NCBI GenBank assembly: GCA_018263495.1
Contig: JAANXC010000081.1
Span: 1-34,593 of the forward strand
Direction: 5' to 3'
Source of the DNA: Nitrososphaerota archaeon
GTDB lineage: Archaea > Thermoproteota > Nitrososphaeria > Nitrososphaerales > Nitrosopumilaceae
DNA length: 34,593 nucleotides
The stretch's first letter is position 1; every line of letters begins with the position of its first letter. The position numbers were made by a program, and so were the translations under genes. Of this stretch, positions 587 through 30,906 are shown piece by piece. The notes below the pieces were generated by a model, which saw only the letters and a list, made by a program, of their open reading frames with translations, made no database searches and had not been told where the DNA came from.

Positions 587-2215
587 ATGCTAAAGTTTCA
601 AAATAAAACTGTACTAGTTACCGGAAGTGGTACAGGAATTGGGCAAGCAATTACGAAGAAATTTGTGGAAAATGGTGCAAGTGCCATAATCCTAGGAAGA
701 AGAAAGGAACCATTAGAAGAAACGGCAAAAATGCTAGAGGAAATTATCAAAGAAAAGCAAAGTAATGCCACCATCAAAATTTTTGATGGTGTAGACGTCA
801 GCGACGAAAAAGCTGTCACTGGAATGTTTGATGCATTAAAAAGTGAAAATGTCAACCTGGATGTTGTTGTAAACAATGCTGGAGTTTCTGGTCCTGTAAC
901 ATGTTTTGCGCATGCACCACTGGATGACTTTAGAAGTACGGTGGACATTCATCTGACTGGAACTTTTTGGACTTCGGTTCAAGCATTAAAAGTCATGAAA
1001 GAAGGAGCAAAAATTATTACAATTTCAACATTTTTTGCGGAAGAAAGACCGTTAGAACAAAGACCATACAGATTCAGAGGTCCATATACCGCATCACAAG
1101 GCGCAAAAAACAGACTCGTAGAAGCAATGTCATGGGAGCTTCTAGAAAAGGGGGTTAGTTCCAATCGACATAACCCTGGTCCGGTCCATTCAGACAGAAT
1201 TTACAAAACAGTTTATCCAAAGGCTGCATCAGAATTTCTACGTGTAAGCGGTTTTGAAGACCTATCACCAAGTGAAGTTGAAGCCGCAAATAATGAAATT
1301 GTAGGATTATTAGGAGAAGATGATGAAACAATAAAGGCTGGAATAAAAGCAGCTGCAGAAAAATTAGGCAAACCGGAAACTACACTTACTAATTTACTGG
1401 ATAAAGTAAAAAGCATCGCAGAAAAAATTCAAAAGAACACCTCAACAATGATTCCAGATCAGCAATTTTTATCGCAAGAACAGGTTGCCACAACGGTTCT
1501 AACACTTGCGGATGACGCACAGGCAAAAATTCTCAATGGAAAAATAATCCCTGGTGACAGAGTTTTCTATCCGGTCAAGTCACACATTAGATCATCTGTT
1601 CCTAAATCTGAGAAAAATAACTTGGATGGAAAACATGTTTACATTGTAAGTGCTGATGGTGATGATCAAAGAGTAAGTAGTATTACATCAATGATAGAAG
1701 ATAAAGGTGGGCAAGTTGCATTAGAACGCACTGATAATATTGATTTATTTATTCATATCACTGGTAATGTTCCAAATTTTTCCAAACTAACTGAGTTATC
1801 CAGAGATGAATGGGATAAACTAGTTAACCAATTCATTAATACCCCCGCCACGATAACACAAAGTGCCATTGATACTTTCGTTCCTGGTGGCTCTGATGAT
1901 CCAAGAAAATTCAAAGATGCAAAAGGTAGAATTGTTATAATTGGTCCCAACCTTCCAGCTGGTAAAAAAATTAGTGGGCATGAAAGGGCAAAGGTTGAGG
2001 TTTTCAGGGGTGCAATGAGACCATTTGCAACTACTGTCAATCAAGAATTAAGTGATGTACTAAAATCAAACGTTAGAGCATTCTTAATTTTGCCTGGAAC
2101 TGTTGATGGAAAAGAATCTAGTGATGAGAATATTGTGAATGCAATTAATTACTTGATGTCTGACGAATCACAGTCAAGTTCTGAAGTAATTTTTTGTCCA
2201 GACGAGACAAGATAG
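587..2215 (+). CDS. Two-domain SDR-family protein resembling the C-terminal half of bacterial malonyl-CoA reductase
   Basis: N-terminal Rossmann motif VTGSGTGIG, NNAG motif, ITIST serine and YTASQ active-site region; a long helical linker, then a second degenerate Rossmann-like domain (GKHVYIVSADGDDQRV...). Confidence 0.8.
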   Translation: MLKFQNKTVLVTGSGTGIGQAITKKFVENGASAIILGRRKEPLEETAKMLEEIIKEKQSNATIKIFDGVDVSDEKAVTGMFDALKSENVNLDVVVNNAGVSGPVTCFAHAPLDDFRSTVDIHLTGTFWTSVQALKVMKEGAKIITISTFFAEERPLEQRPYRFRGPYTASQGAKNRLVEAMSWELLEKGVSSNRHNPGPVHSDRIYKTVYPKAASEFLRVSGFEDLSPSEVEAANNEIVGLLGEDDETIKAGIKAAAEKLGKPETTLTNLLDKVKSIAEKIQKNTSTMIPDQQFLSQEQVATTVLTLADDAQAKILNGKIIPGDRVFYPVKSHIRSSVPKSEKNNLDGKHVYIVSADGDDQRVSSITSMIEDKGGQVALERTDNIDLFIHITGNVPNFSKLTELSRDEWDKLVNQFINTPATITQSAIDTFVPGGSDDPRKFKDAKGRIVIIGPNLPAGKKISGHERAKVEVFRGAMRPFATTVNQELSDVLKSNVRAFLILPGTVDGKESSDENIVNAINYLMSDESQSSSEVIFCPDETR

Positions 2216-16043: not shown

Positions 16044-17075
16044 TCAATTACTAATGATTATTTTCATAGCATTATCACCTGATTTGGCATGCACGAATGC
16101 CTGTTGGCACTCATCTAAATTATATCTGTGCGTAATTAGCTGTGACACGTTAATTTCTTTATTGTTTATTAGATCAACCGCATGTCTAGTATCATCGTCA
16201 GATGCTGCATAAGAATTAACAATTGTAATACCCTTTGAGTATATTTCACTCATATCAAGTTCAACATTTGCGCCCTTACTTGGTACACCAAACATAACAA
16301 TTGTACCACCCCTTCTGACGAAACTAACAGCATCCTTTAATGCATCCAAGCTGCTGGTAGATACGATAACAACATCAACCCCTTGATTCGCAGTTTCAGA
16401 TTTTATTTGCTCTAAAGCATTAGTCTTACCAGGATGGATTGTTGTAGTCTCAATTTTTTTTGCAAAATTCAATCTAAATTCATTCAAATCCAAACAAAAT
16501 ATTTTTCCAAAACCATGATATTTTGCAAGCAATGCATGCATAATTCCAGTAGGGCCAACACCAAGTATAGCAACACTATCATTTTTTTTATGTGAAAATT
16601 TATTCCAGGCTCTAATACAACACGCAAGTGGTTCAATCATTGCAGCCTCTTCAAATGACATACTGGCAGGAATTTTTATTACACCACCATGCTTTACATT
16701 CCATTCCGGGACAATATACTCATCTGCAAGTCCACAAGGTTCAAGATTTGATTTGTAATATCTTTCACACATTGTTTCATTTCCATGACTACATTCATGA
16801 CAATCATCTGAATAACATGCAACGTGATGATGTGTAAACACACGATCACCAACACTGAAATTTGAAATTTCTGAACCAACTTGCGTTATTATTCCTGCTG
16901 GCTCATGTCCAAGTCTCATTGATGGTTGTCCATATTTTCCAAATACTTTTTCAACATCAGAGCCACAAATTCCACAAGCATGCATTTGAACAAGTATGTC
17001 ACCCGGACCAAGAGATTGTTTTTCTATGTTTTTAATTTCTATACTTGAATTGCCTTTCACTACTGCAGCCTTCAT
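16044..17075 (-). CDS. Zinc-dependent medium-chain alcohol dehydrogenase (sorbitol/threonine dehydrogenase-like)
   Basis: CGICGSDVEKVFG, GHEPAGIITQVGSEISNFSVGDRV, structural-Zn-like Cys cluster CYSDDCHECSHGNETMC, GVGPTGIMHALLAK. Confidence 0.9.
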   Translation of the reverse strand: MKAAVVKGNSSIEIKNIEKQSLGPGDILVQMHACGICGSDVEKVFGKYGQPSMRLGHEPAGIITQVGSEISNFSVGDRVFTHHHVACYSDDCHECSHGNETMCERYYKSNLEPCGLADEYIVPEWNVKHGGVIKIPASMSFEEAAMIEPLACCIRAWNKFSHKKNDSVAILGVGPTGIMHALLAKYHGFGKIFCLDLNEFRLNFAKKIETTTIHPGKTNALEQIKSETANQGVDVVIVSTSSLDALKDAVSFVRRGGTIVMFGVPSKGANVELDMSEIYSKGITIVNSYAASDDDTRHAVDLINNKEINVSQLITHRYNLDECQQAFVHAKSGDNAMKIIISN

Positions 17076-18356: not shown

Positions 18357-19103
18357 ATGGTTCAAACTAAAATTATTCCCAAATATCCTGCACTCATGAT
18401 TGAAGGAACTAAAAAAAGTTTAGTTATTACGGACTTACATTTAGGTTTTGAAAGTAATCTGTCGTTAAACAATATATTCTTAGGAAAAAACAGAACTGTT
18501 GCTGAAATTACTAAAGAAATTGAAAAGATCATAAAGAAAACAAAACCGGATTCATTAGTTCTATTAGGTGATATAAAATCTGGAATTAAATCTATAACAA
18601 AAACAGAATGGGAAACTGTACCTATTTTTTTTGAAAGTATTACTAAATTAATTGACACAATTCTGGTTCCAGGAAATCATGATGCAAATATAGAGAAACT
18701 GATCCCAAATGGAATAACACTTGCTAGTTCAAAGGGAATTATTATTGATGATATTCTTTTAACCCATGGGCATACAAAGCCGTCAGAAAATTTTTCGCAA
18801 GTAAATACAATTGTGATGGGTCATGTTCACCCTGTTTTTTTCCAAAAAGAGTCACTGATTAATGGTGAACGAGTATGGGTATCAATCAAGTGTAAGAAGC
18901 AGAGGATATTTCATTCAAAATCAGGAGAATTAGAAGTAATAATTTTACCATCATTTAACAAATACTTTTACACAACACAAAAAAAATTCTATAAAAAATC
19001 AATTTCGCCTATAATTGAGAAAATGGATGTGATAAAAGCAAAAATTGTGACACTTAATGGTACAATAATTGGTGATAAGCAGTTACTATCTTCTGTGATT
19101 TAG
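18357..19103 (+). CDS. Calcineurin-like metallophosphoesterase
   Basis: LVITDLHLGFE (DxH), VLLGDIK (GD), VPGNHDAN (GNHD), LTHGHT and MGHVHP motifs. Confidence 0.9.
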   Translation: MVQTKIIPKYPALMIEGTKKSLVITDLHLGFESNLSLNNIFLGKNRTVAEITKEIEKIIKKTKPDSLVLLGDIKSGIKSITKTEWETVPIFFESITKLIDTILVPGNHDANIEKLIPNGITLASSKGIIIDDILLTHGHTKPSENFSQVNTIVMGHVHPVFFQKESLINGERVWVSIKCKKQRIFHSKSGELEVIILPSFNKYFYTTQKKFYKKSISPIIEKMDVIKAKIVTLNGTIIGDKQLLSSVI

Positions 19104-22100
19104 GGTATGTCCTTGTATGATTCTAATGGTTTTTTCGATGTTTCGTTTTTTTGTAACCACTCCAATGTTTTAACAAATGATTCCGCTAATTCAATAGTTG
19201 AAAGAACGGGAATGCCTAATTCCAGCGACTTTCTTCGTATTTGATATTCATCATAAAGCATACCAACATATTTTTCTAGAGTTGATGTACTTGGAATATT
19301 TACAATAAAATCAATTTTTTTCTCATGCAATAAATCAGAAATGTTCGGTTTCCTTTCTGGCTCGCTAATTTTATGAACAACAGTAACATCTCCAAGTTTC
19401 TCTGCAAAGAATTCTGCTGTTGTTTCAGTGGCAAGAATTTTGAAGCCCAGACTTTTTAACAGTGCAGATGTATGAAGTAATTTTTCCCGGTTTTCTACAC
19501 CGCCTATTGTAACCAATGCTGATCCAGTTTTTGGGAGATTATAACCCACTGATGTCAATCCCTTTGATAATGCATCGTAGAAACTATTTCCAAAACATGC
19601 TGCCTCACCTGTTGACTGCATTTCAACACCCAATACAATATCTGCTCCTTCAAGCTGCATGAAAGAAAATTGTGGAACCTTTATTCCATGCATACCAGTA
19701 TTCGCCCACATACCCTGAGGTATATTGGAAATCTTTTTTCCTAGTATTGCTTGTGCTGCTAGACTAATTATATTCACTTTAACAAACTTAGAAACAAATG
19801 GCATGGAACGAGATGCACGTATATTTAGTTCTATAACATATGCTTGCTCATTTTTAACTAAAAATTGTAAATTAAATGGTCCTCTAACATTGAATTCTTT
19901 AGCAATCCTTGTTGTCGAGTCAGTAATATTTTCAATAATCTTATTGCTTAGCCTCCAAGGTGGTATACACATCATTGCGTCACCAGAATGAACACCAGCA
20001 CTATCTATGTGTTCAACTATCGCACCAATTACCACATTTTCTCCATCACAAACACCATCAACATCAACTTCTAACGCATCAAGCATGAATTTTGTAATTA
20101 CAACCGGATGATCAGGTGATACTACTGTGGCATCGTTAACAAATTTTTTCAGTTCAGCCTGTGACCATACCACCTTCATTGCTGCGCCACTGAGCACGTA
20201 TGATGGTCTTACCAATACAGGATAACCAACCTCCAATGCAAAGTTCTTTGCATCAGTAATATTCGTAAATGCTTGCCAAGATGGTTGCCCTATATGGAGT
20301 GTATCTAAAACTTGGCTAAACTTTGAACGGTTTTCAGCTCTATCCACATTTTCAGCACTTGTCCCAATAAGTGTAATTCCATTGTCAACTAATTTGGGAG
20401 TTAGATTGTTTGCTGTTTGACCACCTACAGATGTAACAATACCATTCGGCTGCTCAAATTCTGATATATCTAAAATTCGTTCAAGTGTAAGTTCTTCAAA
20501 GTAAAGTCTACTGCATATATCATAATCGGTTGATACGGTTTCAGGATTACAGTTTACTACCACCACATTTTTTTCACCGCCATCCTGAAGACCCCAAACC
20601 ATATTCACAGTTCCCCAATCAAATTCTACACTACTACCTATTCGGTAAGGACCAGCACCAAGAACAATGATCCCACTATCCTTTTTTGTAACTGAGATAT
20701 CATTTTCTGTCCCGCCATAGGTAAGATAAAGATAGTTAGTTTGAGCTGGCCACTCCGCTGCTAATGTATCAATCTGTTTAACTATAGGTATAACATCAAG
20801 ATCTTTTCTAATTTTTCTTACTTCTAATCCATCTTTCTTAACAGCTCTACCAATCTGGTTATCAGAGAATCCAAATTTTTTTGCGTCTGATAAAAGTTTA
20901 TGATCCAGTGTTGATGATTTTAATCTTCTTTCTACTTCAACAATATTATTAATTTTGTTTAAGAACCATGGATCAATGGCTGATAATTGATAAATTTTTT
21001 CAATTGATATGCCCTTATGAAGTGCAGCCACAACGTAATACAATATATTATCATCAGGTGTTTGGAGATGTTCCTCAATTTGCTCATCATTTAATGATTC
21101 ATCATTTTGGCGATTTAAGACAAGCCCATCCTTTCCGATGTCAAGCATTCTAATTGATTTCTGTAATACCTCTTCGAATTTTCTGCCTATTGCCATTACT
21201 TCACCCACAGATTTCATAGTAGGTCCCAGATTCCTATTTGCAAGTTCAAATTTTGTAAAATCCCATCTTGGATGTTTACACACTATGTAATCTAAGGCCG
21301 GTTCAAAACACGCAGTGGTCTTTTTTGTGATAGTGTTAACTAATTCTGGTAATGAGTAACCAAGTCCTATCTTTGCAGACATGTATGCCAATGGATACCC
21401 AGTAGCCTTGCTTGCCAGGGCAGAAGAACGTGAAAGCCTAGGATTAATCTCAATTGCAGCATATGTATCGGAAGCTTGGTCTAATGCAAATTGAATATTA
21501 CATTCTCCTACAATTCCAACATGCTTTGTTGCTCGTAATGCTGCAGATCTTAACATATGATATTCGTGGTTATCTATTGTCTGAGATGGTGCAACAACTA
21601 TGTTATCACCAGTATGAACCCTCATTGAAAGTACATTTTCCATATTACAAACTATTACATTATTTTTTGAATAATCTTGCATGACTTCATATTCTATTTG
21701 TTTCCAATCACCAACATATTCTTCAATTAGTATTTGCCCAACAAGACTTGCTGCAAGACCTCTACCAGCAATTTCATGTAATTCAATCTCATTAAATGCA
21801 ACCCCACCACCCTTTCCTCCAAGTGTATATGCAACCCTAACGATTACAGGATAGCCTAAATCTTTTGCAACTTTTTTTGCTTCGTCAAATGTGTGAACTG
21901 TTTTACTTTTTAAAACAGGTACATTGCATTTAACCATCGAATCTTTGAACCTCTGCCTATCTTCTGTTGCCATAATTCCTGGAACCTGTGTTCCCAAAAC
22001 TGATATACCATATTTTTTCAATATTCCAGCTTCATCAACTTTCACACCACAATTTAGTGCAGTCTGACCTCCATAGCTTAACATGATACCATCTGGTCTT

Positions 22101-29958: not shown

Positions 29959-30906
29959 ATGCATACAGTAAGAATACCAAAAATAATTCAATTTGGTGAA
30001 AATGCACTTTCTGAAGCGGAGTATCCAAAAAATGCATTAGTTGTAACAACTGCTCCACCTGAAATATCTGGCAGGTGGTTAGACAAAATGGGCATACAAG
30101 ACTATATGTTGTATGATAAAGTTAAACCAGAACCATCCATTGAAGATGTAAATGTTGTTGTATCTGAATACAAAGGAAAAAACCCATCAGTGCTAATTGG
30201 TCTTGGTGGCGGAAGTTCTATGGATGTTGTAAAATATGCATCAGAAGAATTTGGTCTAGAAAAAATTTTAATCCCTACAACTTTTGGTACCGGAGCTGAG
30301 ATGACAACTTATTGTGTTTTAAAATTTGATGGTAAGAAAAAACTTCTTGGTCCTGAAAAAAGATTCCTTGCAGATCGTGCTATCATTGATTCATATTTTA
30401 TGGATGGCACACCGGAACAAATACTCAAAAACTCTGTATGTGATGCTTGTGCACAAGCAACAGAAGGATATGACAGTAAAATGGGAAATGAACTTACAAG
30501 AACATTATGTAAACAAGCGTTTGACGTATTATATGATGCAATTATGAATGACAAGCCTGAAAATTATCCATATGGTTCCATGCTTTCGGGTATGGGTTTT
30601 GGAAATTGTTCTACAACGCTAGGACATGCATTATCATATGTATTTTCTAATGAGGGTATTGCTCATGGGTACTCTTTATCTTCATGCACTACCATAGCAC
30701 ACAAACACAACAAATCAATTTTCTATGAAAAATTCAAAGAAGTTATTGAAAAAATTGGTTTTGATAAAATGAAGTTAAAGGCTCCTGTCGATGAAGCAGC
30801 TGACATTGTAATGACTGACAAGGGTCATCTTGATCCAAACCCAATTCCAATTTCGAAAGAAGATGTCATCAAATGTCTTAATGACATTAATGATGGCAAT
30901 CTTTGA
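29959..30906 (+). CDS. Iron-containing-type alcohol dehydrogenase; candidate malonic semialdehyde reductase of the 3HP/4HB cycle
   Basis: GLGGGSSMDVVKYASEE, PTTFGTGAEMT, DACAQATEGY, GMGFGNCSTTLGHALS...GIAHG. Location near cdvC fits my memory of N. maritimus Nmar_1110 (MSAR) and Nmar_1088 (CdvC). Confidence 0.8.
   Translation: MHTVRIPKIIQFGENALSEAEYPKNALVVTTAPPEISGRWLDKMGIQDYMLYDKVKPEPSIEDVNVVVSEYKGKNPSVLIGLGGGSSMDVVKYASEEFGLEKILIPTTFGTGAEMTTYCVLKFDGKKKLLGPEKRFLADRAIIDSYFMDGTPEQILKNSVCDACAQATEGYDSKMGNELTRTLCKQAFDVLYDAIMNDKPENYPYGSMLSGMGFGNCSTTLGHALSYVFSNEGIAHGYSLSSCTTIAHKHNKSIFYEKFKEVIEKIGFDKMKLKAPVDEAADIVMTDKGHLDPNPIPISKEDVIKCLNDINDGNL

Follow-up and report, generated by a model that had tools for sequence, protein, structure and literature searches.

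Which enzyme reduces malonyl-CoA in the 3HP/4HB cycle of ammonia-oxidizing archaea (AOA) is the question raised by a two-domain SDR gene near the start of the contig analyzed here, a stretch of 34,593 nucleotides from a member of the Nitrosopumilaceae that we refer to as the window. For N. maritimus SCM1, the malonyl-CoA, acryloyl-CoA, succinyl-CoA and succinic semialdehyde reductases were listed in 2018 as unidentified, with the activities measured (PMC6038301), and in 2020 the AOA malonyl-CoA reductase gene was listed in the same way (PMC6964070); the malonyl-CoA reductase activity of N. maritimus extracts has no gene assigned to it in either paper. The thaumarchaeal enzymes of this segment of the cycle have been described as non-homologous to the crenarchaeal (Sulfolobales) ones (PMC7845616, published in 2021). 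The premise from which the preliminary description of this locus started, that the assignment is unsettled, therefore agrees with these papers, and we found no published assignment of the SDR gene in the open-access papers that we searched.

The candidate gene occupies positions 587-2215 of the forward strand as an uninterrupted reading frame that begins with ATG and encodes 542 amino acids; read on the opposite strand, the same interval contains many in-frame stops. A PF00106 match (E=5.7e-36) covers residues 7-203, the N-terminal SDR domain, in which the hallmarks TGSGTGIG, NNAG and ISTFF are present and YxxxQ stands where a classical SDR has YxxxK. No Pfam model scored above the cut-off for the helical insert and the second Rossmann-like domain. 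An AlphaFold model of the protein, built from 27 orthologues, was confident (mean pLDDT 86.5, pTM 0.87) and contained linker helices at residues 203-221, 228-241, 246-260 and 264-287, followed by a second Rossmann-like domain at residues ∼348-542, so that the architecture first read from the motifs, a two-domain SDR with a helical linker, was borne out. The insert (1199-1462, forward strand, 88 aa) matches the extra domain (ED) found in the C-terminal half of bifunctional malonyl-CoA reductase (MCR-C; MCR-N for the N-terminal half) but is shorter, and the second, degenerate Rossmann/SDR domain (1628-2212, forward strand) is equivalent to SDR4 of MCR-C and shortened in the window species. Because the 27 aligned orthologues are 47-86% identical to the window protein, we dismissed a chance ORF and treated the set as conserved orthologues. 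Most orthologues have 575-603 aa, which makes 542 aa short for the family. In the window species and the relatives nearest to it (L004-L010), the second domain changes fast and has lost ∼50 aa compared with other members of the genus, which retain it at full length.

When the model of the window protein was compared with the PDB using Foldseek, ranks 1-25 were all MCR chains (E 6.6e-24 to 7.5e-17), with 8j2b at rank 1 (TMq 0.73) and C-half chains in each of the first nine places. The best non-MCR entry had an E of 1.5e-14 and a TMq of only 0.40 because the match spans one domain only. An independent model, made for a distant orthologue of Nitrosocaldaceae type (593 aa, pLDDT 88.1), likewise returned 25 MCR chains first, from E 2.5e-25 (rank 1, 6k8s) to 7.8e-17, and next an ordinary SDR at E 3.1e-13 with a TMq of ∼0.4. 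TMq to the MCR chains, most of them C halves, was 0.67-0.74 across both models. Thus, the structural kinship suspected from short sequence patterns was recovered with both models, the best matches being MCR halves that have the linker and the second domain. The patterns themselves, which the preliminary description gave for the C half, proved correct against the Chloroflexus C-half sequence used here, a letter-for-letter match to residues 572-1219 of PDB 8hjw.

At the sequence level, identity to MCR is just ∼16-20%; hhalign against the Chloroflexus C half (CaMCR-C) gave E=2.6e-20 over 450 columns that cover the insert and part of SDR4, and a MAFFT alignment with MCR spans the proteins end to end. 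Sequence search by itself would not be decisive evidence for MCR. MCR chains top such a search because the scores of two domains sum, and with the SDR domain alone the best single MCR SDR domain scored 85 bits vs 92 for a generic SDR. Among plasmids, no MCR-C relative was found at E<=1e-40, and viral contigs gave ordinary SDRs only (23-27% identity), so nothing pointed to an auxiliary copy carried by viruses.

To map the active site, we used the residues of the Roseiflexus enzyme (RfxMCR) described with its structure (PMC10470521) and counted conservation over 130 distinct archaeal sequences, wherever these cover the position. The cofactor motif TGSGTGIG (residues 12-19; 620-643, forward strand, as are the features that follow) precedes R38/R39, of which R38 aligns with the NADP-binding Arg616 of RfxMCR. 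Thr148 (1028-1030) aligns with the catalytic Ser731 of MCR-C and Thr165 of MCR-N. The segment Y161xxR164xxY167xxxQ171 (1067-1099) contains the YxxRxxY motif that SDR1 and SDR3 of MCR have in common; Gln171 occupies the position of the catalytic Lys. The PGPVHSDRIYKTVYPKAASEFLR region (1178-1243) holds two arginines of interest: R204 (1196-1198) aligns with the CoA-site Arg785 of RfxMCR (Arg773 of CaMCR), and R219 (1241-1243) falls about one residue off Arg799 of the RfxMCR ED. Y161, R164, Y167, T148, R38, D70, R204 and R219 are invariant in the archaeal set, and YxxRxxY occurs in 130 of 130 sequences. Equally uniform (130/130) is the replacement of the catalytic Ser-Tyr-Lys by Thr-Tyr-Gln, with Gln171 at the position of Lys753. 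Because a K753A substitution abolishes RfxMCR activity (PMC10470521), this change is the most serious objection to an MCR function. The invariance of the site argues for one that is changed but working rather than decayed. The archaeal protein has the fold, the extra helical domain (in shorter form), the YxxRxxY motif, the CoA-site Arg and the ED Arg (the latter about one residue off) of Chloroflexus-type MCR, and is a single half of 542-603 aa and not the bifunctional fusion of ∼1220 aa. Since the defining catalytic Lys is absent, we claim for it the function of a Chloroflexus-type MCR but not membership of that family.

The distribution of the gene follows that of ammonia oxidation. Across 400 genomes of Nitrososphaeria, matches at E<1e-39 were confined to four families (f1, f2, f3 and f5), and the best match outside them (4e-20) was as expected for an ordinary SDR. 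Among 70 selected genomes, amoA was present in exactly these four families (25 genomes), and 24 of the 25 amoA-bearing genomes carry the SDR gene, the exception (G263) being a MAG of 330 contigs; no genome of the families without amoA carries it. Neither amoA nor the SDR gene is present in two fragmented f1 MAGs (G145 and G149), which keep other cycle genes. The 4-hydroxybutyryl-CoA dehydratase-type domain PF11794 is more widespread, occurring also in several families without the SDR gene. In a broader sample of 151 genomes across Thermoproteota, matches at E<=1e-25 occurred in 25 genomes, every one of them an f1 AOA, and no non-AOA genome in the sample reached that threshold. Essentially every well-assembled AOA genome in our samples thus carries the gene, and the hypothesis passed this check, which the preliminary description had proposed; an AOA-limited distribution fits any AOA-core gene.

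A half-MCR build combined with AOA-wide, AOA-only occurrence makes this gene a strong and testable candidate for a CO2-fixation enzyme. Our preferred reading, which we hold to be probable by a modest measure, is that it encodes a half-MCR-like CoA-thioester reductase that stands alone, depends on NADPH, serves as the malonyl-CoA reductase of the AOA 3HP/4HB cycle and possibly also carries out the succinyl-CoA step. The identification of the missing thaumarchaeal MCR in the preliminary description thus stood in part: the MCR-half fold and the AOA-wide gene speak for it, and the Gln at the catalytic Lys position in all 130 sequences and the nearly equal similarity to the N half weaken it. The substrate, the reaction and the roles of individual residues that we predict are as follows. 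NADPH would be bound by the N-terminal SDR domain through GxxxGxG and R38/R39, R204 and its neighbors would keep CoA in place between the SDR domain and the insert, and the substrate carboxylate would be gripped by Y161, R164 and R219. T148 and Y167 would polarize the thioester carbonyl, where the hydride would attack, and CoA would then depart to leave malonic semialdehyde. In lineages that have an iron-dependent alcohol dehydrogenase (Fe-ADH) of the Nmar_1110 type, that enzyme would convert malonic semialdehyde to 3-hydroxypropionate. The second Rossmann domain would act as a structural lid.

Could the protein act only on another CoA ester of the cycle, malonyl-CoA being the substrate of a different enzyme? 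Succinyl-CoA would then be the likelier ester and acryloyl-CoA the less likely one. The succinyl-CoA and acryloyl-CoA reductases of N. maritimus also have no gene assigned (PMC6038301), and the insert is unlike that of MCR-C in length. We nevertheless consider such a restriction unlikely, given that malonyl-CoA is the substrate of the closest solved relatives and that acryloyl-CoA would call for reduction of a C=C bond, unexpected for the active site of this SDR protein.

We regard as equally unlikely the explanation that the MCR of AOA, like that of Sulfolobales, comes from the aspartate-semialdehyde dehydrogenase (ASD) family, of which AOA have a single homologue, and that the SDR protein has an unrelated AOA-specific role. 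The malonyl-CoA/succinyl-CoA reductase of Sulfolobales is a member of the ASD family that has the pathway step in common with the proposed enzyme and a fold unrelated to SDR. An ASD-family gene is present in every AOA genome tested, and the loss of the catalytic Lys from the SDR protein also favors this explanation. However, for ALTERNATIVES in AOA genomes, we found exactly two PF02774 proteins per genome tested, one ASD-like and one shorter and LysY/ArgC-like, and most non-ammonia-oxidizing relatives also have two; the equal count leaves no spare ASD paralogue for the MCR role. The description of the Sulfolobales and thaumarchaeal enzymes of this segment as non-homologous (PMC7845616) weighs against it as well. 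A separate candidate, an ALDH-type enzyme as the universal AOA solution, was ruled out by the absence of ALDH-superfamily proteins from the single-contig AOA genome G103.

A closer contest is that between the two halves of MCR. The N half (semialdehyde to 3HP; PDB 8hi6, 8aew and 6k8v) is nearly as close as the C half by hhalign (E 7.2e-19) and Foldseek (3.1e-23 vs 6.6e-24), and it shares with the archaeal protein the two-SDR fold, YxxRxxY, the SDRI motif and, in the triad, a Thr where the C half has Ser. In addition, f2 and f5 AOA (e.g., G067, G137 and G112) have the SDR gene and no Nmar_1110-type gene detected at E<=1e-60, so that another semialdehyde reductase, or the SDR protein itself, must act there. 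These observations would suit a protein that acts like the N half, as a malonic/succinic semialdehyde reductase/3-hydroxypropionate dehydrogenase, or that performs both steps. We think this improbable, because the N half has no large helical insert (40 aa after the PGP motif vs 82-108 aa in the orthologues, 88 aa in the window protein and 147 aa in MCR-C) and has an ordinary Ser/Thr-to-Tyr spacing of 13, compared with 19 in all aligned archaeal sequences and 18 in MCR-C. The N half further differs from the archaeal protein in having the catalytic Lys. Profile scores also prefer the C half (85 vs 73 bits), and f1 and f3 AOA already carry an Nmar_1110 orthologue. Insert and spacing both favor the C half. 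Tandem SDR and degenerate SDR domains, a helical insert that follows the PGP motif and precedes the return strand, the YxxRxxY motif, the CoA-site Arg, the NADP-site Arg and Asp and an S/T-Tyr spacing of 18-19 are all common to the archaeal protein and the C halves of the Chloroflexus, Roseiflexus and Porphyrobacter enzymes (PDB 8j2b, 8a30, 8hi5 and 6k8s). The archaeal protein differs from these in standing alone, in its shorter insert and low identity, in the Lys-to-Gln and Ser-to-Thr changes and in that Arg1164 of RfxMCR SDR4 is not kept in place. In a tree of SDR domains, AOA, MCR-N and MCR-C formed three long unresolved stems, with AOA joining neither half. Given this separation and the mixed likeness, we treat the archaeal proteins as a third half-MCR lineage, functionally nearer the C half.

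The Gln in all sequences could also point to a double-SDR protein that is regulatory or has lost catalysis altogether. We rate this as highly improbable, since the other active-site residues are invariant in 130 sequences, as are the CoA-site Arg and the cofactor loop, and such constancy would be unexpected without catalysis.

A malonyl-CoA reductase of the kind that we prefer would mean that one unusual scaffold, the double SDR, had been recruited for malonyl-CoA reduction in bacteria and archaea alike. Because a single gene combines a fitting fold with a fitting distribution, the malonyl-CoA reductase question becomes testable by one expression experiment, and the gene supplies a marker for the AOA variant of the cycle. 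A bolder and less probable reading is that malonyl-CoA and succinyl-CoA are both substrates of this third, stand-alone lineage of double-SDR acyl-CoA reductases, with Gln for the catalytic Lys; a dual reductase would close two gaps in the AOA 3HP/4HB cycle. The lineage may be similar to a one-half protein from which the bifunctional bacterial MCR arose.

To place the gene in N. maritimus SCM1 (genome G044), we used the primer with which Nmar_1028 was cloned (PMC8287830), whose sequence occurs without mismatch at 904421; the SDR orthologue lies at 917089-918852, 12-16 ORFs beyond, and is therefore about Nmar_1040-1044. In the AOA loci compared, no cycle genes adjoin the SDR gene and there is no conserved operon. 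The neighbors are housekeeping genes only (DNA ligase, PhoU-like, tRNA endonuclease, TauE and SRP54), so an operon argument is unavailable. The window does contain an Fe-ADH (29959-30906, forward strand; PF00465) that is 83% identical to the SCM1 gene at 1014832-1015773, which lies 72-88 ORFs after Nmar_1028 (varying with the ORF cut-off) and is consistent with being Nmar_1110. Nmar_1110 is said to have been characterized as a malonic semialdehyde reductase by Otte et al. in 2015, a study that PMC12794621 cites. The proposal that this Fe-ADH is the candidate next enzyme of the cycle thus held, whereas its distance of 28 kb from the SDR gene, also offered as evidence, means little because the two genes are ∼98 kb apart in N. 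maritimus, and we rejected that argument. In genome G103, the Nmar_1110-type gene (contig 1, 1020001-1020942) is read with one in-frame TGA.

Three further observations concern the window and its relatives. In many Nitrosopumilaceae, a conserved gene of ∼150 aa, missing in the window, starts a few bases after the SDR gene (L079, 9776-10225; L182, near 18859-19308; SCM1, 918858-919308); it may encode a MaoC-like hotdog protein (weak match to 1q6w, E=1.6e-4). Within the SDR gene of the window, positions 1157-1171 form a 15-bp microinversion: where two close relatives (L004 and L006) carry one orientation, the window has its exact reverse complement, AGTTCCAATCGACAT. The inversion is flanked by inverted GGGTT/AACCC and turns the conserved SIGTN ahead of PGPVHSD into SNRHN; it could reflect either a genuine template switch or an error of assembly. 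Finally, the window encodes a zinc-type MDR alcohol dehydrogenase at 16044-17075 (PF08240/PF00107). The acryloyl-CoA reductase of Sulfolobales belongs to the MDR superfamily, and by analogy this gene is a possible lead to the acryloyl-CoA reductase of AOA.
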